The notes below the pieces were generated by a model, which searched no databases, was not told the DNA's origin, and saw only the letters and a program-made list of their open reading frames with translations. DNA of 64,000 nucleotides from an uncultured Bacteroidota bacterium (GTDB taxonomy: Bacteria; Bacteroidota; Bacteroidia; Flavobacteriales_F; PHOS-HE28): contig CADEDY010000003.1 of assembly GCA_902826215.1 (NCBI GenBank), forward strand, positions 1 to 64,000. The letters run 5' to 3'. Positions 3,155 to 24,787 of the stretch are shown piece after piece (position 1 is the stretch's first letter; each line of letters opens with the position of its first letter). Both the position numbers and the translations under genes were made by a program.

Positions 3155-5536
3155 ATGCAGAAATTCGTGATCGCGATCATCGCGTTGGTCCATGTGATCG
3201 GTGCTACGGCTCAAGTGCGCTACGCGGGTCAGGTGTTGGGGGAAGGGGATTCACCCTTGATGGCAGTGAATGTGGTGCTCGGTGACGACCAGGCTTTTGG
3301 GTCCGCCACCGATGGGGAAGGTCGTTTCGTATTGAACGGCTTGCGCAATGGTCCTCAGCGATTGCGCATGAGCCATGTCGGTTACATGATGATCGACACC
3401 GTGATCACTGGCGGGCAAGAAGTGGATCACGTGTTCCGGTTGCGCCCCGACATCGTAATGATGCGCGCTGCGGAGATCACCGCGTTGCGCGTGGGGGATG
3501 CGCCCTTTGCCAAGTCCATCGTGTCCAAGGAGGACATCGCGAAGAACAACACCGGCGTGGATCTGCCGTATTTGCTGGACCTGCAGCCCAGCGTGGTCAC
3601 CACCAGCGACGCGGGTACAGGCATCGGGTACACGGGCATGCGCATCCGCGGAACGGATGCGACGCGAACGAACATCACCCTGAATGGTGTGCCTTTCAAT
3701 GACCCGGAAAGCCAAGGCGCATTTTTGGTGAACCTGCCGGATCTCGCATCCAGTGCCGAGGACATCGAAGTGCAACGCGGGGTCGGAACGAGCACCAACG
3801 GACCTGCAGCGTTCGGAGCCACCGTGAATCTGAGGACCACATCCGTGAAGCGGGATCCATGGGCCAACATCGGGTTCAGCGGCGGTTCGTTCAACACCCA
3901 GCGTTACAGCGTGAGTGCGGGAACGGGGTTGATCAACGAGAGGTTCAGTCTCGACGTACGCCTGTCATCGATCACTAGCGATGGGTACATCGATCGCGCC
4001 ACCGCCGATCTGAAGAGCTACTTCCTGCAAGGTGCCTGGGTAGGGAAGAAACGTTCGTTGCGCTTTATCACCTTCCGAGGAAAGGAGGTGACGTACCAAG
4101 CGTGGGGCGGCGTTCCGCGTGAGGTGATCGACACGAACCGGACATACAACGAGTACACTTACAAGAATGAGGTCGACAACTACGATCAAACGCATCATCA
4201 GTTGCTCTTCGAAGAGAAGCTAAGCGCGAACACCACCTTCAACCTGACGGGTTTCCGCGTGGACGGCAAAGGCTATTACGAGAACTACAAGGCGGACGAA
4301 GCAAGTCCGGGTTACTTCCCGGCACCCATCGTGATCGGTGCTGATACGATCGCATCGAACGACTTCATCATTCGTCGCTGGCTGGACAACACGTTGCTGG
4401 GTGTGAATGCTTCCCTGGCGCATGGTTTCGGAAAGCACAAGCTCATCATCGGCGGCAGCTACAGCGACTATTCCGGCGCACATTTCGGTGAAGTGATCTG
4501 GGCGCGTTCTGCCGGTCCGTACAACAACGACTTCCGCTATTACGACAACGATGCGCGCAAGGTGGACGCCAACGTCTACGCCAAATTGAACTACATCGTC
4601 AGTGACCGCATCAACGTGTTCGGCGACGTGCAGATGCGCACGGTGAACTATGATTTCCTGGGCTTCGACGATGCGCAGAACAACCGCATCCAGAACAGCA
4701 CCTTCGCCTTCTTCAATCCGAAAGGCGGTGTCAACTGGCGCGTGCATGAAGGCGTGCGCGTGTATGGTAGCATTGCCATTGCGAACCGCGAACCGAACCG
4801 CGATGATTTCGAGGAGACCACACCGAGCAGTCGCCCAACGAGCGAACGGCTCACCGACTTCGAATTGGGCTACGAGCGTCGTTCGGCACGCTTCGCTGCA
4901 GGCATCAACGGCTACTACATGGACTACACGGACCAGTTGGTGTTAACAGGTGAATTGAATGATGTAGGTGCCGCGCTGCGCACCAATGTTCCGGAGAGTT
5001 ATCGCGCCGGGGTGGAATTGACATGGGCTGCGCAGCTCACCAAACGCCTGCGGTGGAAGGGCAACGCCACCTTCAGCAAGAACCGCATAAAGGACTTCAC
5101 GGAGTATGTGGACGATTGGGATACGGGCGGACAACGAACGTTCACATACGCCTCAGCACCGATCGCCTTCAGCCCGGACCTGATCGCTGGTAGTGAGCTG
5201 GGCTATCGTTTCTGGCATTCCGCGGGAAAGGGAAGCGCCGACCTCGCCTTGATCACGAAATACGTGGGCCGACAGTACATCGACAACAGCGGAAGTGCCG
5301 ATCGTGCATTGGACGCCTACGTGGTGAACGACTTGCGGTTGAACGTGGCCTTGACGAAGGTCTTCGGTATCCCGAACATCGACTTCAACCTTACGGTGCG
5401 CAACGTGTTCAGCGAGCTCTACGAAAGTAACGGCTGGAGCTACAGCTATGTGATGGATGGTCGTCGGCAGGAATTCGTTGGGCTCTATCCGCAGGCCCCA
5501 CTGAATGTTCTGGGAGGGCTGAACTTGAGGTTCTGA
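3155..5536 (+). CDS. TonB-dependent receptor, TPP-riboswitch controlled (probable thiamine uptake)
   Basis: A 793-residue outer-membrane receptor. Residues 1-20 are a signal peptide ending at ATAQ. A CarboxypepD_reg-like domain (about 22-100; TDGEGRFVLNGL, MSHVGYMMID) is followed by a plug (about 115-225; LPYLLDLQPSVV, GMRIRGTDATRTNITLNGVPFNDPES) and a beta barrel ending in the terminal phenylalanine strand GGLNLRF. The family imports substrates with energy from TonB-ExbBD. The substrate is inferred from the upstream TPP riboswitch: thiamine, a thiamine phosphate or a precursor. No thiamine biosynthesis gene is seen in the window. AGGA lies a few bases before the ATG, one of few starts here with a purine-rich leader. 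Confidence 0.92.
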   Translation: MQKFVIAIIALVHVIGATAQVRYAGQVLGEGDSPLMAVNVVLGDDQAFGSATDGEGRFVLNGLRNGPQRLRMSHVGYMMIDTVITGGQEVDHVFRLRPDIVMMRAAEITALRVGDAPFAKSIVSKEDIAKNNTGVDLPYLLDLQPSVVTTSDAGTGIGYTGMRIRGTDATRTNITLNGVPFNDPESQGAFLVNLPDLASSAEDIEVQRGVGTSTNGPAAFGATVNLRTTSVKRDPWANIGFSGGSFNTQRYSVSAGTGLINERFSLDVRLSSITSDGYIDRATADLKSYFLQGAWVGKKRSLRFITFRGKEVTYQAWGGVPREVIDTNRTYNEYTYKNEVDNYDQTHHQLLFEEKLSANTTFNLTGFRVDGKGYYENYKADEASPGYFPAPIVIGADTIASNDFIIRRWLDNTLLGVNASLAHGFGKHKLIIGGSYSDYSGAHFGEVIWARSAGPYNNDFRYYDNDARKVDANVYAKLNYIVSDRINVFGDVQMRTVNYDFLGFDDAQNNRIQNSTFAFFNPKGGVNWRVHEGVRVYGSIAIANREPNRDDFEETTPSSRPTSERLTDFELGYERRSARFAAGINGYYMDYTDQLVLTGELNDVGAALRTNVPESYRAGVELTWAAQLTKRLRWKGNATFSKNRIKDFTEYVDDWDTGGQRTFTYASAPIAFSPDLIAGSELGYRFWHSAGKGSADLALITKYVGRQYIDNSGSADRALDAYVVNDLRLNVALTKVFGIPNIDFNLTVRNVFSELYESNGWSYSYVMDGRRQEFVGLYPQAPLNVLGGLNLRF

Positions 5537-5724: not shown

Positions 5725-7863
5725 ATGCGCATCTTCTTCACCATTCCGCTTTTGCTCTTGACCATGCTGGGATCGGCCCAGTTCGCTTTCGATGCAAGGA
5801 TCGTGGACTATGTCGGATTGAAGTTTCCTTGTGAGGGGGTGGTTCGTCCCGTGCTTGCGATCCGGAATGAAGGGACGACGCCGATGAGCGGCTGTGTGGT
5901 GGAGACCTGGAAGAACGGGATCCTTGTCAATACGTTCGATTGGCAGCTGGCGGTTCCGTCGGTGGAGGGAGAGTTGCGAAAACCCGCATTTCCTGAAGTA
6001 ACCGATGTGGTACCTACCGACGAACTCGAGTTCCGGATCAAGACCGTGAATGCAGTGCCGGACCAGAACGCGGACGGGAATATCAAGCTGATCGAAGTGG
6101 ACGCTGTCCATGCCTCAACGCCATCCACGGAGATCACCGTGAAGGTGGTCACCGACGATGCCCCCCAAGACCTGACCTGGGAGATCCGCAACGACTTGGA
6201 CCAACTCGTTGCCTCGGGTGGGCCGTATGCCGATGCCAATACCGTGATCACGGATCCGGTTGTACTCGATGCCGGTGTCTGCTACAACGTCAAGGCGGTC
6301 GATGGTGGGCGGGATGTCGTTTCCGGTGCGCGCGTTCAAGTGGTGAGCGGTCAGAACACCCTTCTTTCCTTTGAAGGCGCGCAGTTGATGGACGGCACCC
6401 GTCAAGGCTTGAGCACGGGCAGCGGAGCAGGTTGTACCGAGCAATTGATCATCGAATTGCATACGGACGATGCTCCTGATCAAACCAGCTGGGAGATCCT
6501 CGGTCAGGAGGATGGCGCGATCGTGTGCGCAGGCGCTGGGGACTACCCAGCCGGTTCCATCTTGACAGAAGCATGCTGTCTCGAGGTCGGTTGTTACCGG
6601 ATGCGCGTGCTCGATGCGGGTGGGGACGGGATCACCTCCGGGGGCTATGTGCTGCGGACGAGCGACACCATGGCCCGCATCATCGATGACCGTGATAACT
6701 TCAATACGGGTGCGTCCAGTGCGCTGTCAGGAGGGCAGGGTTTCTGCTTGCCCATCGGTGGTGATCGGACCATCTTCAGCAGTTGCGATAAGCTGGATTG
6801 GGTGACCAACAAGTTCATCGTCGCTTCGGAGAACGCTTCGGTCAGCGCGCAACTTGGGATCACCAATTCCACCAGTGGGTATGTTTTCTGGTTCTTCGAC
6901 CCGAACGGCAGCTTCAGCTACCGCCGTTTCCGCAGTCATGCGACCAGCGATGGATACGGTGCAGGTGCCACACGCGCTTGTCACTTCAGGGTGAACGGCT
7001 GGCTGAACACGCCCACGACCCCGCACTTGCCGCCGAACATTCTCCTGAACGTTCGTGTCCGCGGTCGTGTGGCCGGTGTGAATCAGGAATTCGGTCCGGC
7101 CTGCCAGTTCAGGATCGATCCCGTCCTGGCAGCGTGCCCACGAGTGAAGCTCCAGGACAACCCGCTCAGCAACTACTACAGCTGTGGAGTGAACAAGGTC
7201 TTCGGCGGAAGCAACAGCGCAGCCAACCGCATCACCTCCACACGCCCGCAACCCATTCCTGCAGTCAGCAGCGCTGATGTGCGTTACCAGTTCCGGTTCC
7301 GGATCCCCGGTGAAGTACCCAATGAAGGTTCCTGTATCGTTCGTCCCGTTCAGACGAGTGCAACGTTGTACTTGAACTGGTCCGGATCGGATCGTCTGAA
7401 GTGCAATACACAGTATGAGGTGGATGTGCGAACGAGCTTGGATGGTGGCACTACCTGGTGCTTCGGCGGAACGGATCCCGTTTGTGATCCATCGCCAACT
7501 CCATGGGGTACGGTGTGTCAATTGAACATTACAAGCAGCACATACTGCCCAAGCGCGGTCGCGGTAGAGGGCAGCAGCATGGCGCTGTCCTCTGATGCGA
7601 ACCTCACACTCTTCCCGAATCCCACTTCGGGCGATGCGCTCAAACTGTCCCTCACCGGTCTTGATGCATCATTGACAAGCGTGTCGTTCACCATGTTCGA
7701 TCTCACGGGAAAACAGGTCGCTATGCGGAACATTCCGATCGCAGATGGTCGTGTACTGGTCAATATCGATGAGGCCGCGTCGCTTGCCAGCGGTGTTTAC
7801 CTGGTACATGTACAAGCGGGCTCCAGTTCTTTCGTTGAACGGCTGGTCGTTCGCAAGGACTGA
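5725..7863 (+). CDS. Secreted T9SS type A sorting domain protein with two tandem repeats
   Basis: A 712-residue secreted protein with signal peptide MRIFFTIPLLLLTMLGSAQF. Residues about 130-225 and 245-330 are two copies of a module that begins with VVTDDAP...TWEI or LHTDDAPDQTSWEI and continues with a GVCYN/GCYRM strand, so an internal duplication is visible. The middle region (about 350-620) is cysteine-containing and fibronectin/Ig-like in texture, with no recognised catalytic motif. The C-terminal sorting domain is clear: LTLFPNPTSGDALKLSL, then SGVYLVHVQAG and VERLVVRKD at the end. It is probably a surface or extracellular cargo protein of T9SS; function unknown. Confidence 0.85.
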   Translation: MRIFFTIPLLLLTMLGSAQFAFDARIVDYVGLKFPCEGVVRPVLAIRNEGTTPMSGCVVETWKNGILVNTFDWQLAVPSVEGELRKPAFPEVTDVVPTDELEFRIKTVNAVPDQNADGNIKLIEVDAVHASTPSTEITVKVVTDDAPQDLTWEIRNDLDQLVASGGPYADANTVITDPVVLDAGVCYNVKAVDGGRDVVSGARVQVVSGQNTLLSFEGAQLMDGTRQGLSTGSGAGCTEQLIIELHTDDAPDQTSWEILGQEDGAIVCAGAGDYPAGSILTEACCLEVGCYRMRVLDAGGDGITSGGYVLRTSDTMARIIDDRDNFNTGASSALSGGQGFCLPIGGDRTIFSSCDKLDWVTNKFIVASENASVSAQLGITNSTSGYVFWFFDPNGSFSYRRFRSHATSDGYGAGATRACHFRVNGWLNTPTTPHLPPNILLNVRVRGRVAGVNQEFGPACQFRIDPVLAACPRVKLQDNPLSNYYSCGVNKVFGGSNSAANRITSTRPQPIPAVSSADVRYQFRFRIPGEVPNEGSCIVRPVQTSATLYLNWSGSDRLKCNTQYEVDVRTSLDGGTTWCFGGTDPVCDPSPTPWGTVCQLNITSSTYCPSAVAVEGSSMALSSDANLTLFPNPTSGDALKLSLTGLDASLTSVSFTMFDLTGKQVAMRNIPIADGRVLVNIDEAASLASGVYLVHVQAGSSSFVERLVVRKD

Positions 7864-13801: not shown

Positions 13802-14239
13802 TCAGTTGTAGATCCGCAGTATGGTGCCGTTGAACGACGTGTTGTAGCGCTGCAAGCTCAATGCCGAAGGGCCTTCAACAACACTGCCATCCGTGATCAG
13901 ATAGGCAGAATGACAGCAAGCCGTATCTCGCGCAGTGATCTGGGAATCATCCACATAAACGCGGCAGAGGTCGGCCGTCTGATATGGACAGTGGCGGTCC
14001 ATGGCAATGAAATTGTCGATCCCGGCACGGTAAACGATCAATCCAAGCGAGCCTCCACTGAGGTAAATCCATCCGCCGGGAACGGCCAAGTCGGCGTAGC
14101 CGGGGTTGTTCACATTGATGCTGATATCGATCGGATTCAAAGGTACTCCGCCCGGCTTATCCTTCTTGCAGCTTGGCAAGAGCACCACGCTCACCAAGGC
14201 AGCGGTCAGGATGGTTCCGAAGGTGGCGTGGCGTACCAT
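13802..14239 (-). CDS. Rieske-like lipoprotein with altered cluster motifs
   Basis: A 145-residue protein with a lipoprotein signal peptide: a hydrophobic stretch ends at LLPSCKK, with Cys at about residue 24 as lipidation site. The rest looks like a Rieske-fold domain: DRHCPYQTADLC (about 81-92), then DTACCHSAYLITDGSVVEGPSALSLQRYNT (about 107-136), where GSVVEGPS...L..Y is the usual end of Rieske domains. The four standard iron ligands (C-x-H and C-x-x-H) are not intact: the first box has CPY rather than CTH and the second has ACCH. It may bind no [2Fe-2S] cluster or bind it differently. A perfect -7 element lies upstream at 14262-14269. Confidence 0.7.
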   Translation of the reverse strand: MVRHATFGTILTAALVSVVLLPSCKKDKPGGVPLNPIDISINVNNPGYADLAVPGGWIYLSGGSLGLIVYRAGIDNFIAMDRHCPYQTADLCRVYVDDSQITARDTACCHSAYLITDGSVVEGPSALSLQRYNTSFNGTILRIYN

Positions 14240-14883: not shown

Positions 14884-17800
14884 TTGATGTTGAGAAGGTT
14901 ATTCTCCACAGTCGTCCTTTCCATTTGCGCCACGCTAGCCGTGCTTGCCCAAACGGGTTCTGGTAGCTTGAAAGGCAAGATCACCGACAAGAAATCCGGA
15001 GAACCGCTACCGTTCGTGAACGTCGTAGTGGAGAACCGTGGCACGCAAGTGTCGGGAGGAGCGACCGACTTCGATGGAGAGTACTTCATCAAACCGATCT
15101 CACCCGGTACTTATGACGTGATCGTGAGCTACGTGGGATATCAGCCCTACAAGCAAACAGGGGTGATCGTGAACAGCAACAAGATCACCTTCTTGGAGAT
15201 CGCGCTTAACCAAGGGATCGAGCTGAAGGAATTCGAGGTGGTGAAGTACACCGTTCCATTGATCGATCGTGACGGTGGCGCATCCGGTGGAACCGTGACC
15301 AGGGAAGATATCGCTAAGATGCCGGGTCGTTCCGCGGCTTCCATAGCAACCACTGTCGCTGGTGCCAGCACAGCAGGTACGGGTGGCGGCATCAGCATCC
15401 GGGGGTCGCGTTCGGAGAACACCTACTACTATATCGATGGTGTTAAGGTGCCTGCGGGAGCGGGAACAGGGCTGCCCAAGAGTGCGATCGAGGAAGTGCA
15501 GGTTGTAACCGGCGGTGTGCCAGCGAACTACGGTGACGTAACCGGCGGTCTGATCAACATCACAACGCGCGGCCCAAGCCGGAATTTCTTCGGTGGCCTT
15601 GAGTATTTGACATCTGGGTTCAAGACGGGAAGCGATATCACCAACATCGTCGGCCTGGACAAGTATGCCTTCAACCAGATCGAGGGTAGCTTGAGCGGTC
15701 CGATCCTTTTCAAGAAGGACAGCTTGGGCAACAAGACCAAGCCGTTGATCGGCTTCTTCGTTTCCGGTCAGTTCACGAATGTGGTCGATGGCTCGCCATC
15801 CTACTTGGGTGATCTGCGTGTTCGCCAAGATGTGCGCGAGCAGCTCTTGGCGAATCCGGGCCAATTCCGGCCGAACGGCGCCAACGATTTCATTCTCGCG
15901 TATTCGAGCGAATACCTGCGCTCCTCCGATGTGGAGTTGCTGAAGACCCGCCAGAATGCAGGTCAAACGAGTTACTTGGCTTCCGGCAAGATCGACATCA
16001 CGACCACACCGACCATCAACCTGACTTTGGGTGGTTCGATCGATTACAACGATCGTCAGGACTGGAATCGCAACAACTCCTTGTTGAATGCGGAGAACAA
16101 CTACCGCACGAAGGAGAGCACATGGAGGGGCTTCGTCAAGTTCACCCAGCGATTCACGAACCGCACGGCAGAAGAGGAGAAGAAGAGCACCATCCAGAAT
16201 GCGTTCTATACGCTTCAGTTGGACTACTCACAGTACCGCAATAACGTGGAAGACTACGTGCATGGCGATAGATTCTTCGATTACGGGTATGTGGGCAAAT
16301 TCGTGACACTCAGCGCACCTCAGTTCCAGATCGTTCCCGGATTGCCTTCACAATGGACACAGATCGGCTCCCAGGATACCCTTGTGCAGTTCACGCCCGG
16401 TACACAGAATCCTGATCTGGCAGCGCTGAACACCTATTACTTCAGCACACTGCCGCAGGAGCAATTCCCGATCAATTTGTTGGGAGGCGGCCCGGGAGAT
16501 CCCAATTACGTGGGCTACTACCGGAACTTCGTGGAAACACAGAACCGAGGTGCTCTTTGGAACGGTGATCGTCCTCGGCAGATCTACAATTTGTGGAACA
16601 GCATCGGATACATCGATGATCCGAATGGTGCGGAGTATCGGAAGCGTGCGAATGATCAGTTGCGATTCACAGCTTACGGAAGTGCTGACATTGGTGCACA
16701 TGCTGTTTCACTGGGTGTGGAGTACGAGCAATTGACACAACGTCGTTACGATCTTGCACCGATCGGACTTTGGACCAGAGCGCGCAACTTGGCCAACTTC
16801 CACTTGGGTGAGTGGCAACAGGATACCCCTACCGGTACCGTTTATTTACCGGGCACCTTCCCATTTGTTCTCTATTCGAGGAGCTATGGTTCGGACCAAA
16901 CCGTTTTCGACCGGAACCTAAGGACGGCCTTGGGCTTGGATCCGAACGGTGTGGACAACATCGACGTGGATGCCTTGGATCCCGGTGTATTCTCCTTGGA
17001 TATGTTCTCTCCGGATGAGTTGATCAACAACGGAAATAATCTTGTGGACTATGTTGGTTTCGACCACTTGGGCAAGAAGCTGACCAGTAAGCCTAGCTTC
17101 TCCGATTTCTTCGATGGCCGCGATGAGAATGGAAATGCAACACGCTTGCAGGCTCCTTTTGAACCCATCTACATCGCAGGTTATGTGATGGATAAGTTCG
17201 CTTTCGATGACATCATCTTCAACGTAGGTGTCCGCGTGGACCGCTACGATGCGAACCAGAACGTTCTGAAGGACAAGTACCTGTATCAGGATGCGTTCAC
17301 GGCAGGTTCAGCCGTGCCGGATCAAACCATTCGCGATCTGTTGGCCAACCGACCGGAAAATATAGGCGACGATTTCGTCGTGTACGTTGACAACTTCGAG
17401 AACCCGAATACGGTCAAGGGGTATCGTGATGGCGACCAATGGTACTCTGCGCAAGGCGTTGAACTCACAGACGGATCATCCTTGGCCGAAGCAGGGCAGA
17501 TCAAACCTTACTTGATCGAAGGTGGAAATGCTGGAAGTCTTACTGGTTCTGACCTGAGCAAGGAAGCATTCCGCGATTACACACCTGTGGTGAACGTGAT
17601 GCCGAGGGTGGCCTTCTCCTTCCCGATATCCGACGAAGCGGTATTCTTCGCGCACTACGATGTTCTTACGCAACGTCCTGGTGCCGTTCAGTCCAGGTTG
17701 AATCTGGTCGACTACGCGTTCATCCAGAACTCGGGCAACATCATTTCGAACCCGAATTTGAAGCCGACCAAGACCATCGACTACGAATTGGGCTTCCAGC

Positions 17801-18654
17801 AGGTGTTGAGCAAAGCCTCCTCGCTGAAGTTGTCCGCGTTCTATCGGGAACTGCGTGATCAGATCCAGATCCGGAACGTGATCAATGCTTGGCCTCGTGA
17901 CTACAGGACCTACGATAACTTCGACTTCGGAACAGTGAAGGGCTTCACCACATCGTTCGATCTTCGTCGCACCGGTAACGTGTGGATGCGTGCCAGCTAC
18001 ACCTTGCAGTTCGCCGATGGTACGGGTTCTGGTCCACAGACAGGTCTCAACCTGGTGAATTCCGGGCAGCCGAACTTGCGCACCATTGCACCGCTTGATT
18101 TCGATCAGCGCCACCGGTTCACCACCACGTTCGACTTCCGCTATGGAGGTGGCAAGGACTACAACGGACCGATGCTCTTCGGGAAACCGATCCTCGGACG
18201 TACAGGCGTGAACGTCGTGAGCGTGTTGGGAAGTGGAACACCATACAGCCGTAGCAGCATCGTTTACAACGAAGGTGCAGGCTCCGGTAGTCGTGCCTTG
18301 GATGGTACACTGAACGGTGCACGTTTGCCATGGCAGTTCACCACCGATATGCAGATCGATCGTGACATTCCCCTCACCTTCGGTGGAGGCGACGGCGACA
18401 AGGCGAAAAGTGCGGACCTGAACGTGTACCTGTTGATCACCAACGTGTTCAACACACAGAACGTCACCGACGTCTATCGCTACACCGGCTCTCCGAACAA
18501 CGACGGTTATCTGGCCAGTGCACAATCCCAACCGCAGATCGCCGCACAGGTGGATCCTGCAGCATACCGTGACCTCTACGCTTTGAAAGTGAACTCACCG
18601 TTCAATTACGGTGCACCACGGACGATCCGTTTGGGGGTACGTTTCAATTTCTGA
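14884..18654 (+). CDS. Large TonB-dependent receptor with carboxypeptidase-like regulatory domain
   Basis: A 1256-residue outer-membrane receptor. Signal peptide MLRRLFSTVVLSICATLAVLAQ is followed by a CarboxypepD_reg-like domain (about 28-115; GKITDKKSGEPLPFVNVVVENRG, TDFDGEYFIKPISPGTYDV), a plug (about 130-230; EDIAKMPGRSAASIATTVAG, GISIRGSRSENTYYYIDGVKV) and a very large barrel that ends in TIRLGVRFNF. It is longer than ordinary vitamin or iron receptors because of large extracellular loops. It is the first gene of a tight three-gene unit with a 1358-residue secreted protein (21 bases downstream) and a PorV/PorQ-like barrel, which suggests a surface complex and not simple solute uptake. 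The ligand is unknown. Confidence 0.88.
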   Translation: MMLRRLFSTVVLSICATLAVLAQTGSGSLKGKITDKKSGEPLPFVNVVVENRGTQVSGGATDFDGEYFIKPISPGTYDVIVSYVGYQPYKQTGVIVNSNKITFLEIALNQGIELKEFEVVKYTVPLIDRDGGASGGTVTREDIAKMPGRSAASIATTVAGASTAGTGGGISIRGSRSENTYYYIDGVKVPAGAGTGLPKSAIEEVQVVTGGVPANYGDVTGGLINITTRGPSRNFFGGLEYLTSGFKTGSDITNIVGLDKYAFNQIEGSLSGPILFKKDSLGNKTKPLIGFFVSGQFTNVVDGSPSYLGDLRVRQDVREQLLANPGQFRPNGANDFILAYSSEYLRSSDVELLKTRQNAGQTSYLASGKIDITTTPTINLTLGGSIDYNDRQDWNRNNSLLNAENNYRTKESTWRGFVKFTQRFTNRTAEEEKKSTIQNAFYTLQLDYSQYRNNVEDYVHGDRFFDYGYVGKFVTLSAPQFQIVPGLPSQWTQIGSQDTLVQFTPGTQNPDLAALNTYYFSTLPQEQFPINLLGGGPGDPNYVGYYRNFVETQNRGALWNGDRPRQIYNLWNSIGYIDDPNGAEYRKRANDQLRFTAYGSADIGAHAVSLGVEYEQLTQRRYDLAPIGLWTRARNLANFHLGEWQQDTPTGTVYLPGTFPFVLYSRSYGSDQTVFDRNLRTALGLDPNGVDNIDVDALDPGVFSLDMFSPDELINNGNNLVDYVGFDHLGKKLTSKPSFSDFFDGRDENGNATRLQAPFEPIYIAGYVMDKFAFDDIIFNVGVRVDRYDANQNVLKDKYLYQDAFTAGSAVPDQTIRDLLANRPENIGDDFVVYVDNFENPNTVKGYRDGDQWYSAQGVELTDGSSLAEAGQIKPYLIEGGNAGSLTGSDLSKEAFRDYTPVVNVMPRVAFSFPISDEAVFFAHYDVLTQRPGAVQSRLNLVDYAFIQNSGNIISNPNLKPTKTIDYELGFQQVLSKASSLKLSAFYRELRDQIQIRNVINAWPRDYRTYDNFDFGTVKGFTTSFDLRRTGNVWMRASYTLQFADGTGSGPQTGLNLVNSGQPNLRTIAPLDFDQRHRFTTTFDFRYGGGKDYNGPMLFGKPILGRTGVNVVSVLGSGTPYSRSSIVYNEGAGSGSRALDGTLNGARLPWQFTTDMQIDRDIPLTFGGGDGDKAKSADLNVYLLITNVFNTQNVTDVYRYTGSPNNDGYLASAQSQPQIAAQVDPAAYRDLYALKVNSPFNYGAPRTIRLGVRFNF

Positions 18655-18675
18655 TCGAACTGACAACGCAAGACC

Positions 18676-21600
18676 ATGAAAGGCACAACAGGAGCATCCT
18701 TCACCAGAACCTTCGCTCTAGGCCTCGTCGCGTTGCTCGTCCTGCCGACGAGCGCAAGAGAACCGGACCGTCCAGCGGGTTCGAGCGGTATTCAAGCAGC
18801 TCGTCCTAAGGCAGCTGCATGTGTACCGGCCTCCGAGGTCACACAGATCTCGTACAACAACGTACGGGCAGTGATCGAGAACGGTGGCAACATGTGGACC
18901 CGCCGAGGTGGTTCCAGCCGCTCGGGCTATGAGGTCCCCAAGACCGACGATTTCACAGGTGCTTGCGCGATCTATGCCGGCGGCCTTTGGATGGGTGGTG
19001 TTGGCCCAGACAATAACCTGAAGCTTGCGGCAGTTTTGTTCCGCGCCAATGGGAACGACTTCTGGCCAGGCCCGCTCACCAATACTGGTGATGCTTCGGT
19101 CAGTCCGGAGGTGTGCGAACAGTATGACCGTTTCTGGGTGACCGAGCGCGCTCAGGCAGAGACCCACATTCAGTGGATCCAATGCCAGAACGACCCGGAC
19201 AATTGTGACCTTGATGAGGTTTTCCCTGAAGGTTATTCCGTGCCAACTTCCTTTTCCTCTTGGCCTGCAGAAGGTGACGTGGATGAAGGACAGGACCTGT
19301 ATCTGGCACCGTTCTTCGATTACGACGGCAATGGTTCCTATGATCCCTTCACCGGCGATTACCCGGATTATGGTTTCGACGAGAGCGTGGAAGAATGCAA
19401 GAACAGGCAGCGAGAGGATCCGGTTAACCTGTTCGGCGACTACAACATCTTCTGGATCTTCAATGACAAGGGTGATGTTCACACCGAATCGTTCGGTGGA
19501 CAGCCCATTGGTCTCGAAGTTCGTGCGCAGGCCTTCGCCTTCAGCTCGAACAACGAGATCAACAACATGACCTTCTACAACTACACGGTCATCAACCAAG
19601 GCACGCAAACGTTGTTGAATACCTACTTCGGGCACTTCGTTGATCCTGATGTAGGCTGCTCGAATGATGACTTCGTCGGTTGTGATGTGCAACGCGGACT
19701 TGGATTCGCATACAACTGGGATGATCTGGACGATGCTAACTGTCAAGGCGCTGTGGGATATGGAGCACAACCTCCTGCAATTGGAGTGGACTTCTTCGAA
19801 GGCCCATACCAAGATGCCGATGGGTTGGACAATCCCGGCCCGGAGAGGAGTGTTGATGTGCTCGACTGCGTGGTCGCGCAACAACAGAACGGTATCCCAT
19901 ACAAAGGTTTGGGCATAGGTTACGGTGATGATTTCGCTGATAATGAGCGCTTCGGCATGCGGGCTTTCCTATACTGGAACCGTGATGGACCATTCGCCAC
20001 GAGTGATCCCGGTGCACAGGGTCACTTCTACAATTACCTGCGTGGTATCTGGAAGAACGGTCTGCCGATGACCTGGGGTGGAAGTGGCTACAACGAAAGC
20101 CCTGCCGCTGTGCAGACGCGTTACATGTTCCCATGGAGCAGCGATCCAGTTGGTTGGGGTACGAATTGTGCCGTTCAGCCGGATTGGCGTGAAACCCTCC
20201 AAGCTCCACAGGACCGTCGCTTCGTGCAGAGCGCAGGACCATTCACCTTGGAGCCAGGGGCATACAACAACATCACGCTAGGTGTGGTATACTCGCGTGC
20301 TGCAACTGGCGGCGCTGTCGCTAGCGTTCAGACATTGAAAGTAGCGGATGATAAAGCGCAATCGTTGTTCGACAACTGCTTCAAGATCCTGGACGGCCCG
20401 GATGCTCCGGATCTGGAGATCGTGGAATTGGACCGCGAGTTGATCATCTATCTCTCCAATCCCAAGGGTAGCAACAACAACGTAGTGCAACCGTTCGATT
20501 ACACGGAATTGGATCCGATCATTCCGGAGGTGGACGAGAACGGTGAATTGTATGACCGCGAGTACAAGTTCCAAGGGTACATGCTGTATCAGCTCAAGAA
20601 TGCTGATGTAAGCGTAGCTGATCTGGGTGATATTGAATTGGCGCGTTTGGTCTACCAAGGTGATGTGGAGGACGATGTCGCTCAGATCATCAACTATCCG
20701 TTCAGTGACGTACTGCAACTCCCGGTGCCAACGGAAATGGTCAATGGAGCGAATGTGGGTGTTGCTAGCTCAGTGCGCCTGTTAGAGGATGCGTTCGCAG
20801 CAGGCGATCCCCGGTTGGTGAACTTCAAGTCCTACTACTACTTGGCCATTGCTTACGGGTACAACAACTACGCACCGTATGATGTGAATGCACGAACAGG
20901 TCAACCATTCTCCTTCGTTGCTAGTCGAAAAGGTGCATTCGGTGCGATCCGCAAGTATGTGGGTATTCCGCATCGTCCGGATCCAGCAGCGGGTGGTACT
21001 GTGCAGAATTCGCTTTACGGCGATGGACTGCAGATCACACGCTTGGAAGGTCAGGGCAATGGTGGCAACGGTCTGGAACTCACTGCAGCTTCTGCGAACG
21101 AGATCGTCGCACAAGCTCCTTGGCGCAAGGATCAGATCACATACAGCCGTGGAAGAGGACCGGTGAACATCAAGGTGGTTGATCCGCTGAAGGTGCCCGC
21201 TGGCGATTTCGAGATCTGGTTCAAGGATGATACCCTGACACCTGGGGATCTGGACGATGCATATTGGTACATCGTGAGGCTTCCTGGTGGTTCGCCGAAC
21301 GATACGGTGCACAGTGAGCGCGTCATCGATCTGCCTTATGAGCAGGTGATCCCGCAGTGGGGTATCAGCGTCACGATCGACCAAGCGATCTACACCGGTG
21401 ATTTCACTAACCCATTGAGCGAAGGGTCCATCACCTACGCTGATCCATCAAAGGCGTGGTTCACCGGAGTTCCAGACGGAGAGGCAGAGATCGTGCAGAA
21501 CTGGATACGCTCGGGGATCTACACCAGCACTGATGCGCCGATCTACAACGACCGCGGCGATGTGGATGAACTCTATGAGAAGGTCCTAGGAGGAACTTGG

Positions 21601-22752
21601 GCACCCTGGTCTTTGGCCGGGCAAGCTGAATTCCAGCCGGGCACACCTTCGGAATCGAATCCGGAGTCCCCTCATGCGTCCACTGGTCTGGCGTTGATCA
21701 AGGACATTCCGAGCATTCAGTTGGTGATCACCAGCGATCGTAGCAAGTGGTCGCGCTCCCCCGTCTTCGAACAAGCTGCATCAGGAGGGGTCGGTGGAGC
21801 CACACGAATGGCGTTGCGTGCATCTCCGAGCATTGATAAGGATGGCCGGAAATCGGGTACGCCCGGTTGTAATGAGGGCGAGGCCCAGGTGACCAGTGCC
21901 ACGAGCATGGGATGGTTCCCGGGTTATGCGATCGATCTGGAAACCGGCGAGCGCCTGAACGTGGGGTACGGCGAGAACAGCTTCTGGGGAGGTGGGATCG
22001 GTCAGGATATGTTGTGGAACCCCAATGATCAGTTCTACACGAACACGGGATCTCCGTTCTTCGGAGGTTGTCATTGGATTTATGTATTCAAGAACGACCG
22101 ACGCACTTCAGGTGTGCCGAGTGGTGATCGTGTGCCGCAGTACGATGAAGGGGCATGGATCCGAACCAACATGGAAGGCAATGGAACGCAGTCCCGTCTG
22201 AAGGTCTTCCGTGCGATCGGCTGGGTCAGCAGCGCCATGGTGGTGCCAGGCAGCGAGTTCATGGGCACCGATGTGAAAGTGGTCATCGATGTCAAGAAGC
22301 CTTACCGCACCTATGTCGATTATCCAGGTAACCCTGCGCCGATCGTGCCTCTGCGGAATAACGGCCTACCACTGTACACCTTCTCGACCGGCGACCTGGC
22401 CGCAGAGAACGATGTTCTCACTGTAGCTGAGTCCTCGTTGGATCTGATCGATGTCGTTCCGAACCCGTACTACGCGTTCAGTGGCTACGAGACCACGCGA
22501 TTGGACAACCGCATCAAGTTCATCAACCTGCCGCAGGCATGCACCATCTCCATCTACAACGTGGGTGGAACCTTGGTGCGGAAGTACAGGAAGGACAATG
22601 ACCTGACCTACTTGGATTGGGACCTGAAGAATGCGAACAACATCCCGATCGCAGGTGGTGTGTACATCTGTCACATCGATGTGCCGGGGGTCGGTGAGAA
22701 GGTCGTGAAATGGTTCGGTGTGTTGCGCCCCATCGACCTACAGAATTTCTAA
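18676..22752 (+). CDS. Giant secreted protein with T9SS-type C-terminal domain
   Basis: A 1358-residue protein with an N-terminal signal (hydrophobic FALGLVALLVLPTSA). The body is rich in aromatic and acidic residues and in calcium-loop-like text (DYDGNGSYDPFTGDYPDYG near residue 215), with no recognised enzyme motif. Near the C-terminus, VVPNPYYAFSGYE, TISIYNVGGTLVRKY and IAGGVYICHIDVPGVGEKVVKWFGVLRP form a T9SS sorting-like domain, with an unusual extra tail ending RPIDLQNF. It lies 21 bases after the TonB receptor and 29 bases before the PorV/PorQ-like gene. It is probably an exported surface protein working with both; its function is not known. Confidence 0.85.
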   Translation: MKGTTGASFTRTFALGLVALLVLPTSAREPDRPAGSSGIQAARPKAAACVPASEVTQISYNNVRAVIENGGNMWTRRGGSSRSGYEVPKTDDFTGACAIYAGGLWMGGVGPDNNLKLAAVLFRANGNDFWPGPLTNTGDASVSPEVCEQYDRFWVTERAQAETHIQWIQCQNDPDNCDLDEVFPEGYSVPTSFSSWPAEGDVDEGQDLYLAPFFDYDGNGSYDPFTGDYPDYGFDESVEECKNRQREDPVNLFGDYNIFWIFNDKGDVHTESFGGQPIGLEVRAQAFAFSSNNEINNMTFYNYTVINQGTQTLLNTYFGHFVDPDVGCSNDDFVGCDVQRGLGFAYNWDDLDDANCQGAVGYGAQPPAIGVDFFEGPYQDADGLDNPGPERSVDVLDCVVAQQQNGIPYKGLGIGYGDDFADNERFGMRAFLYWNRDGPFATSDPGAQGHFYNYLRGIWKNGLPMTWGGSGYNESPAAVQTRYMFPWSSDPVGWGTNCAVQPDWRETLQAPQDRRFVQSAGPFTLEPGAYNNITLGVVYSRAATGGAVASVQTLKVADDKAQSLFDNCFKILDGPDAPDLEIVELDRELIIYLSNPKGSNNNVVQPFDYTELDPIIPEVDENGELYDREYKFQGYMLYQLKNADVSVADLGDIELARLVYQGDVEDDVAQIINYPFSDVLQLPVPTEMVNGANVGVASSVRLLEDAFAAGDPRLVNFKSYYYLAIAYGYNNYAPYDVNARTGQPFSFVASRKGAFGAIRKYVGIPHRPDPAAGGTVQNSLYGDGLQITRLEGQGNGGNGLELTAASANEIVAQAPWRKDQITYSRGRGPVNIKVVDPLKVPAGDFEIWFKDDTLTPGDLDDAYWYIVRLPGGSPNDTVHSERVIDLPYEQVIPQWGISVTIDQAIYTGDFTNPLSEGSITYADPSKAWFTGVPDGEAEIVQNWIRSGIYTSTDAPIYNDRGDVDELYEKVLGGTWAPWSLAGQAEFQPGTPSESNPESPHASTGLALIKDIPSIQLVITSDRSKWSRSPVFEQAASGGVGGATRMALRASPSIDKDGRKSGTPGCNEGEAQVTSATSMGWFPGYAIDLETGERLNVGYGENSFWGGGIGQDMLWNPNDQFYTNTGSPFFGGCHWIYVFKNDRRTSGVPSGDRVPQYDEGAWIRTNMEGNGTQSRLKVFRAIGWVSSAMVVPGSEFMGTDVKVVIDVKKPYRTYVDYPGNPAPIVPLRNNGLPLYTFSTGDLAAENDVLTVAESSLDLIDVVPNPYYAFSGYETTRLDNRIKFINLPQACTISIYNVGGTLVRKYRKDNDLTYLDWDLKNANNIPIAGGVYICHIDVPGVGEKVVKWFGVLRPIDLQNF

Positions 22753-22781
22753 GCCAGCGCTAGGATACAATACGGATCGAG

Positions 22782-23837
22782 ATGATGCGAACGATGGAAC
22801 GGAACGTGATGCTGTCGATGGCCTTGGTGGCCCTCACCTGTAGCACAGCCTTGGCAGGTAACCCTGACCGAGCTGGTTCAGCAGGTGCCACGCAACTGCT
22901 CATCAACCCGTGGGGCCGCTCTTCGGGCTGGGGCTTGGCCAACTCGGCTTCGGTGCGCGGTGTTGAAGCCATGTATGGCAACATCGCAGGTCTTTCACAA
23001 GTGAACAAGACGGAGATCATCTTCAGCAATACGCGGTGGCTGAGTGGATCCGGAACAACGATCAACAGCGTCGGTTTCGGCCAGAAAATGGGAGCCTCAG
23101 GTGTTCTGGGTATCTCTGCCACCACATTGGGCTTCGGCGACTTGGAGGTGACCACCGTAGATAACCCGGCCGGCGGTCGTGGTACGTTCAGTCCCACCAT
23201 GGCTAACATCGGCATTTCCTATGCCAAGAGCTTTTCCAACAGTATCCATGGTGGTTTGCTCATCCGGATGGTTTCCGAGAGCATCGCGAATGCCCGTACA
23301 CAAGGGGTGTGCTTTGATGCCGGGATCCAATACGTCACGGGCGAAAAGGACAACGTGCACTTTGGTATTGCCTTGAAGAATGTTGGACCAGCCATGAAGT
23401 TTTCCGGTGATGGTCTCGCCGTTCAAGGACTTCTCACCGGTGGTGCGGACCAGCTCACGTTGGAGCAACGCTCTGCACAATTCGAGATCCCCTCATTGCT
23501 GAACATCGGCGCAGCCTATGACTGGCACCTGAACGATATGCACCGGATCTCCTTCGCTGGGAATTTCGTCTCCAACTCATTCACGAAGGACCAGGGAGTT
23601 CTTGGTGTGGAGTACGCTTTCCGGAAAATGGTCCACCTGCGTGGAGGATACACGTATGAGAAAGGGATCACCAGTGATACGGACCGCACCACGGTCTACA
23701 CGGGGCCATCCGCAGGTATCAGCTTGGATCTACCCTTTGGCGAAGAGAAGAAGTCGGCTATCGGTATCGATTACAGTTATCGGTCGACAAACCCATTTGC
23801 GGGCATCCACAGCATCGGGGTGCGGGTCAGTCTCTGA
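22782..23837 (+). CDS. PorV/PorQ family outer-membrane barrel protein
   Basis: A 351-residue protein. A signal peptide (MLSMALVALTCSTALAG) is followed by the family opening GATQLLINPWGRSSGWGLANSASVRGVEAMYGNIAGL, then alternating strands and a terminal barrel strand ending IGVRVSL. This matches the FadL-like 14-strand PorV/PorQ family (related to T9SS PorV, which carries cargo from the translocon). True PorV usually sits elsewhere, so this is likely a paralogue dedicated to the adjacent giant protein or receptor. The chosen start could also be one of the ATGs at 22785, 22794 or 22809. It ends the operon, with a terminator 19 bases after its stop. Confidence 0.85.
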   Translation: MMRTMERNVMLSMALVALTCSTALAGNPDRAGSAGATQLLINPWGRSSGWGLANSASVRGVEAMYGNIAGLSQVNKTEIIFSNTRWLSGSGTTINSVGFGQKMGASGVLGISATTLGFGDLEVTTVDNPAGGRGTFSPTMANIGISYAKSFSNSIHGGLLIRMVSESIANARTQGVCFDAGIQYVTGEKDNVHFGIALKNVGPAMKFSGDGLAVQGLLTGGADQLTLEQRSAQFEIPSLLNIGAAYDWHLNDMHRISFAGNFVSNSFTKDQGVLGVEYAFRKMVHLRGGYTYEKGITSDTDRTTVYTGPSAGISLDLPFGEEKKSAIGIDYSYRSTNPFAGIHSIGVRVSL

Positions 23838-23856: not shown

Positions 23857-23882
23857 AAAGAGGACCTTTCGGGGTCCTCTTT
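23857..23882 (+). terminator. Intrinsic terminator after PorV/PorQ-like gene
   Basis: A perfect 10-bp stem (AAAGAGGACC with GGTCCTCTTT) surrounds the loop TTTCGG. The downstream T-run is short, but the position after the operon's last stop is right. Confidence 0.85.
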
Positions 23883-23920: not shown

Positions 23921-24394
23921 ATGAGCACCACAGCCTACTATACCGAAGACGGGTTGCGCAAGCTCCAAGAAGAGCTGCATCACCTGCGAACCGTGGAACG
24001 CCCACACTTGAGCCAACAGATCGCCGACGCACGCGACAAAGGCGACCTTAGCGAGAACGCTGAATACCATGCGGCCAAGGAGGATCAAGGCCTTCTGGAG
24101 GCACGGATCGCGAAGCTGGAAGAAGTTGTGGCAAGCGCGCGTGTGATCGATATGGATCAAATGGATACGAGCAAAGCCTACATCCATTCCACGGTTCGTG
24201 TGAAACAAGTGGGCAGTGGAGCAGAACGGTCTTTCACGCTTGTCGCCGAAAGCGAGGCCGACATCAAGTCAGGCAAGATCAGTGTGAGTTCGCCGATCGG
24301 CAAAGGGTTGCTCGGAAAGGCAGTTGGGGAATTAGCTGAAGTGACCACGCCGACCGGCACCACCAAATTCGAGGTTCTTGCCATTACACGATGA
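23921..24394 (+). CDS. greA: Transcription elongation factor GreA
   Basis: A 157-residue protein, normal length. The N-terminal coiled coil (about 10-75) carries the acidic tip motif RDKGDLSENAEYHAAKEDQ whose Asp and Glu enter the RNA polymerase channel and stimulate transcript cleavage in backtracked complexes. The C-terminal FKBP-like GreA/GreB domain ends with SPIGKGLLGKAVGELAEV and a terminal strand KFEVLAITR. It is followed after 3 bases by the HIT-family gene, so both are probably cotranscribed. The start at 23921 (MSTTAYYTEDG) fits the family. Confidence 0.97.
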   Translation: MSTTAYYTEDGLRKLQEELHHLRTVERPHLSQQIADARDKGDLSENAEYHAAKEDQGLLEARIAKLEEVVASARVIDMDQMDTSKAYIHSTVRVKQVGSGAERSFTLVAESEADIKSGKISVSSPIGKGLLGKAVGELAEVTTPTGTTKFEVLAITR

Positions 24395-24397
24395 ACC

Positions 24398-24787
24398 ATG
24401 CCCAGTCTATTCACCCGTATCGTCAATGGGGAGGTCCCCAGCTACAAGCTTGCAGAGAGCGAGGACTATCTGGCTTTCTTGGATGTGAAGCCGGTTCGCA
24501 TCGGCCATGCGTTGGTGATCCCGAAGTTGGAAGTGGACCATCTTTTCGACCTTGAAGGCGAGCTGCTGGAAGGCATTCTGCCGTTTGCAAAGGAAGTAGC
24601 GCGCAAGATCAAGGCGGTGGTTCCGTGCACCCGCATCGGGATCAGTGTCATCGGGTTGGAGGTGCCGCATGCGCACATCCACTTGATCCCGATCGATTCT
24701 TTGGCCGACATGGATTTCACACGAACCCGTGTGGAGCTTTCACCCGCCGAATTCACCGATCTGGCGGAACGGATCCGCAAGGCGTAG
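24398..24787 (+). CDS. HIT family nucleotide-binding hydrolase
   Basis: A 129-residue protein with the histidine-triad motif HAHIHLIP (about residues 90-97) that holds the catalytic histidines, plus the N-terminal FTRIVNGEVPSYKLAESEDYLAFLDVKP and GHALVIPK, typical of the Hint/HinT branch. Members cleave nucleoside phosphoramidates or adenylyl-protein linkages; the physiological substrate is usually unclear. The gene begins 3 bases after greA, an arrangement common in Bacteroidota. Confidence 0.95.
   Translation: MPSLFTRIVNGEVPSYKLAESEDYLAFLDVKPVRIGHALVIPKLEVDHLFDLEGELLEGILPFAKEVARKIKAVVPCTRIGISVIGLEVPHAHIHLIPIDSLADMDFTRTRVELSPAEFTDLAERIRKA

Follow-up and report, generated by a model that had tools for sequence, protein, structure and literature searches.

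A conserved Bacteroidota operon pairing a TonB-dependent receptor with a large type IX secretion-type surface protein and a PorV/PorQ-family barrel

Across the Bacteroidota, we identified one conserved operon that couples a TonB-dependent receptor (TBDR) with a large secreted protein and an outer-membrane barrel of the PorV/PorQ family. The three products probably form a surface capture-and-uptake complex built through the type IX secretion system (T9SS) rather than from surface lipoproteins; we put the probability of this reading at roughly 0.6. The gene order, its conservation and the T9SS-type C-terminal domain (CTD) of the large protein are established below, while delivery by this barrel, retention of the CTD, contact with the TBDR and uptake are inferred. 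The original prediction, made from the sequence alone, that the operon encodes a dedicated surface assembly or substrate-capture system distinct from the canonical PorV shuttle is supported.

The operon and its conservation

The operon lies in the 64,000-nt stretch of DNA analysed (the window; contig CADEDY010000003.1 of GenBank assembly GCA_902826215.1, uncultured Bacteroidota bacterium). Its features and those of the surrounding window are listed in Table 1. The first open reading frame was predicted from a TTG at 14884, but an in-frame ATG lies at 14887. The intergenic gaps are only 21 and 29 bases, and a strong hairpin with a perfect 10-bp stem (23857-23866/23873-23882) follows the third gene. 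It was missed by a simple terminator scan, but the 83-nt stretch folds at -29.6 kcal/mol, with a z of -5.8 against shuffled sequences.

Table 1. Features of the operon and its surroundings; positions are those of the window.
Feature	Position	Strand	Description
TBDR	14887-18654	+	1255 aa from the ATG; N-terminal CarboxypepD_reg domain and plug
Giant	18676-22752	+	1358-residue secreted surface protein
Giant aa 45-571	18808-20388	+	Predicted beta-supersandwich domain
Giant aa 215-230	19318-19365	+	Conserved Asp/Gly-rich stretch
Giant aa 572-1240	20389-22395	+	Predicted mostly beta, confidently modelled
Giant aa 1250-1349	22423-22722	+	T9SS CTD, predicted Ig-like
Giant aa 1350-1358	22723-22749	+	Fixed 9-residue tail, LRPIDLQNF
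Barrel	22782-23837	+	351 aa; PorV/PorQ-family outer-membrane barrel
Hairpin	23857-23882	+	Terminator-like
Small protein	13802-14239	-	Weak Rieske match
greA and HIT-family gene	23921-24787		Follow the module
Other TBDR and T9SS-tailed protein	3155-5536 and 5725-7863		Por_Secre_tail over cut-off; no PorV-type barrel

The plug domain of the TBDR scores 39.1 bits with PF07715 (gathering score 23.9). The barrel scores 132 bits with the PorV/PorQ family model NF033709 (cut-off 90), but only 47 of 250, 66 of 220 and 39 of 325 bits with the equivalog models for PorV, PorQ and PorV2, respectively, each of which is satisfied by another gene of the same genome. The 1358-residue protein, hereafter called the giant, belongs to no Pfam or NCBIfam family, and its C-terminus only grazes the T9SS models: the whole protein reaches 13.1 bits with TIGR04183 (cut-off 23) and 14 of 260 bits with the PorZ model NF052228, the latter over the CTD part only.

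The operon is not an accident of this strain. The giant was found in 44 of 45 genomes of a genus sample, in 204 of 247 genomes of a class sample and, more weakly, in 122 of 247 genomes of a phylum sample. TBDR sequence lies upstream and a PorV-type barrel downstream in nearly every intact locus of the genus and in most loci of class and phylum. Of 107 loci with enough flanking DNA on both sides (a few of which are duplicates or a shortened paralogue), 78 have both partners, 24 have neither and 5 have only one, so that receptor and barrel come and go together. About 22 distinct loci carry the giant alone, and it need not always be made with its own partners, although three genomes that hold such a solo giant also hold a complete cassette elsewhere. 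In three loci (L140, L141 and L145), a second giant gene follows in tandem, the order in L140 being TBDR-giant-barrel-giant. No conserved fourth module gene was found: greA and a HIT-family gene follow in about 47-49 of the related loci, so the position is old and stable, but these are housekeeping genes and we read them as neighbours. A relative of the small protein with a weak Rieske match lies upstream of the module in 26 loci.

Each part constitutes its own orthologous group. In a tree of 108 PorV-family barrels, the 63 giant-linked ones form one clade (100/99), apart from the PorV, PorQ and PorV2 of this genome and from the barrels of other modules. The giant-linked receptors group likewise; two rows inside their group had been labelled "other", one of which (locus L082) is itself giant-linked on a truncated contig. 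The genome carries PorV beside PorU, PorQ, PorV2 beside PorU2, and PorZ (C1:262-2601, contig C1 of this genome) elsewhere, so the operon's barrel is a fourth one and not a stand-in. A fifth, sub-cut-off PorV-family-like barrel (contig C10, 88148-88888; loci L184 and L188) has no assigned partner.

Sorting domain, tail and body of the giant

The CTD of the giant is T9SS-like but is not an ordinary type A domain: it scores 17.5 of 23 bits with TIGR04183 and 13.3 of 27 bits with PF18962. It likewise remains below the cut-off for type B domains (PF13585; 13 of 27 bits). A profile built from 82 CTDs found PorZ first among three solved chains, PorU being the only other T9SS chain. All 82 also match the PorZ model and TIGR04183, although the window's own score with the latter is below the cut-off. 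The AlphaFold model of the CTD (pLDDT 82.6) is Ig-like and closest to PorZ (Z 10.6) and PorU (9.1), followed by mirolase (8.2), RemZ (7.6), RemA (7.5) and NucA (7.4). Against the CTDs of the same genome, a profile built without the genus scores the giant at 196 bits, PorU and PorU2 at 22, PorZ at 11 and the 30 ordinary cargo CTDs at about 11 at most. PorZ and PorU keep their CTDs and are held at the surface by PorQ and PorV (PMC5562754), and their CTDs are also longer than cleaved ones (PMC11285876). The lengths of the extra beta-ribbon in PorU/PorZ-type and ordinary CTDs, compared by eye, overlap and were not used as a criterion. Retention of the giant's CTD is inferred from its likeness to PorZ and PorU, which does not prove an uncleaved CTD.

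The original prediction that the domain carries an extra RPIDLQNF tail is right. RPIDLQNF ends an extension beyond the CTD core that is exactly 9 residues long in 160 of 160 homologues, with a hydrophobic last residue in 159 (F in 131). The 160 include close relatives, about 107 being below 80% identity. Solo giants keep the tail too. By contrast, of 20 CTDs from the sister modules described below, 19 end 0-2 residues past the core and one has 6, while all 20 end in K, R or H.

The model of the body (aa 44-1240) is confident (pLDDT 89.7). Its N-terminal part (aa 45-571) has the beta-supersandwich fold of the N-domain of GH15/65/94/116 enzymes (Z 18.4 over 257 residues, 3.2 Å), a fold seen in carbohydrate-active enzymes, but no catalytic (alpha/alpha)6 barrel follows: the rest of the model has 12% helix, with only short helices. 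The conserved stretch at aa 215-230 (DYDGNGSYDPFTGDYP) is possibly calcium-binding. For aa 572-1240, which was not folded alone, no clear match to a known fold was found. Sequence searches of solved structures with the body profile, the TBDR or the barrel gave nothing. A 623-aa protein encoded elsewhere in the genome shares the N-terminal domain but carries an ordinary type A CTD (31.7 of 23 bits), and none of the genome's PorV-family barrels lies near it. This is a natural contrast: same domain, ordinary signal, no dedicated barrel.

Link to the T9SS and sister modules

The window's genome encodes SprA (2528 bits) as well as PorV, PorU, PorQ and PorZ. In the phylum sample, the giant occurs in 122 of 190 SprA-positive genomes and in 0 of 57 SprA-negative genomes. 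The negatives are dominated by few lineages, so this is consistent with dependence on the T9SS without proving it. Sixty-eight SprA-positive genomes lack the giant, so it is not a core T9SS part.

Ten genomes of other classes hold 6-20 PorV-family barrels each. Of 47 barrels examined in four of them, 19 lie in TBDR-CTD protein-barrel modules, 7 in CTD protein-barrel pairs (some of which look like PorU-PorV) and 3 in TBDR-barrel pairs. Within each of three genomes, the distances between CTDs and between barrels correlate (Mantel r 0.56-0.79, p 0.01 or less), as expected for modules that diverge as units, though this can reflect duplication of whole modules rather than binding specificity. None of ten sister cargo proteins has a Pfam body family.

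Sister modules (loci L213, L215, L216, L239, L240, L243 and L247) lie beside carbohydrate-active enzyme or carbohydrate-binding genes, like SusCD in polysaccharide utilisation loci. The neighbours include GH9 plus GH3, two chondroitinase-B-type (PL6) lyases, a PF10091 glucanase, GHL10 proteins and a CBM20 protein, but also amidase and phosphatase-type genes, and the association was not set against a random-neighbourhood control. The window operon itself has no carbohydrate-active neighbour. With the single model PF07980, no SusD_RagB hit was obtained in the window's genome or in five genomes with 11-20 PorV-family barrels (G332, G372, G423, G466 and G346), whereas others have hits; one genome (G304) has both 16 PorV-family barrels and 6 SusD hits, so replacement is not strict.

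A published Rhodothermus marinus alginate locus reads tonB-hypA (T9SS)-hypB (PorV/PorQ family) among alginate lyases, listed without comment on a system (PMC9530828), and plasmid pRMAR01 carries another trio (RMAR_RS14120-14110). These have the same gene order and kinds but are sister modules rather than orthologues of the giant: the CTD on pRMAR01 lacks the tail, and hypA is only 2,181 nt. Some heme-uptake clusters drawn for Porphyromonas and other Bacteroidota also include a T9SS-domain gene and a PorV/PorQ-family gene (PMC12106395, Figure 1). No description of the trio as a system was found in the open-licence papers searched.

A putative capture-and-uptake complex

We suggest that the giant crosses the inner membrane by Sec, as inferred from the T9SS literature, and that the dedicated PorV/PorQ-type barrel docks on SprA, takes the giant by its CTD and 9-residue tail and pulls it out. 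As with PorZ on PorQ and PorU on PorV, the CTD would not be cleaved and the barrel would stay as the membrane anchor. The anchored protein would then sit on or beside the TBDR made from the same operon and capture a ligand that the receptor imports, doing the job that a SusD lipoprotein does in SusCD. No member has been studied by experiment, and each of these steps is inferred.

In this reading, the operon resembles the PorQ-PorZ and PorV-PorU pairs of the T9SS attachment complex, in which a PorV/PorQ-family barrel holds an exported surface protein that keeps its CTD, but it differs from them by a separate barrel clade, a different cargo body, the tail and the TBDR. The type B pairs SprB-SprF and PG1035-PorP also have a cargo gene followed by its own FadL-type barrel (PMC9143113, PMC12618676), but here CTD and barrel belong to the PorV/type A side, and a TBDR is in the operon. 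As in SusCD and other TBDR-surface lipoprotein complexes, TBDR and surface partner come from one operon; the partner here, however, is a T9SS-type protein with its own barrel and not a SusD-type lipoprotein.

Alternatively, though unlikely, the barrel could carry and anchor the giant as a static surface layer or adhesin, with the TBDR only a structural or sensing partner. PorP/SprF-type pairs deliver and anchor surface proteins without import (PMC9143113, PMC12618676), the giant has no catalytic domain, and solo giants lack a neighbouring TBDR. However, a TBDR is the upstream gene in 80 of the 83 loci that have a barrel or a TBDR, and it recurs in sister modules, several of them beside enzyme genes. 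Less likely still, the barrel could be a transient substrate-specific shuttle, after which PorU cleaves the CTD and links the giant to lipopolysaccharide; PorV works in this way for type A cargo (PMC5562754, PMC10994853), and PorU, PorZ and PorQ are in the genome, but the CTD resembles the uncleaved PorU/PorZ CTDs at least as well as the cargo CTDs in profile, lies nearest to PorZ and PorU in predicted fold and has the fixed extra tail. That the TBDR powers export or release of the giant, as the TBDR Oar is required for PopC secretion in Myxococcus (PMC6434023), would fit the close operonic linkage but is improbable, since the giant has its own T9SS-type CTD and occurs, in the phylum sample, only with SprA, and nothing here points to TonB-driven export. 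Mere co-transcription of functionally separate outer-membrane proteins, which the short gaps alone would allow, is the least likely, given the order and orthology kept across the phylum and the joint absence of receptor and barrel.

More broadly, it is about as likely as not that Bacteroidota have a second general design for TonB-coupled capture, in which the surface partner of the receptor is a T9SS cargo held by its own PorV-family barrel instead of a SusD-type lipoprotein. This design would have multiplied into many ligand-specific modules in other classes, the giant being the most conserved, phylum-wide version, and it makes testable whether each PorV-family barrel carries and keeps one cognate cargo. 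It would explain why many Bacteroidota carry 10-20 PorV-family barrels when one PorV serves all known type A cargo, assign a role to a large family with no Pfam entry, and give SusD-poor lineages a capture system.
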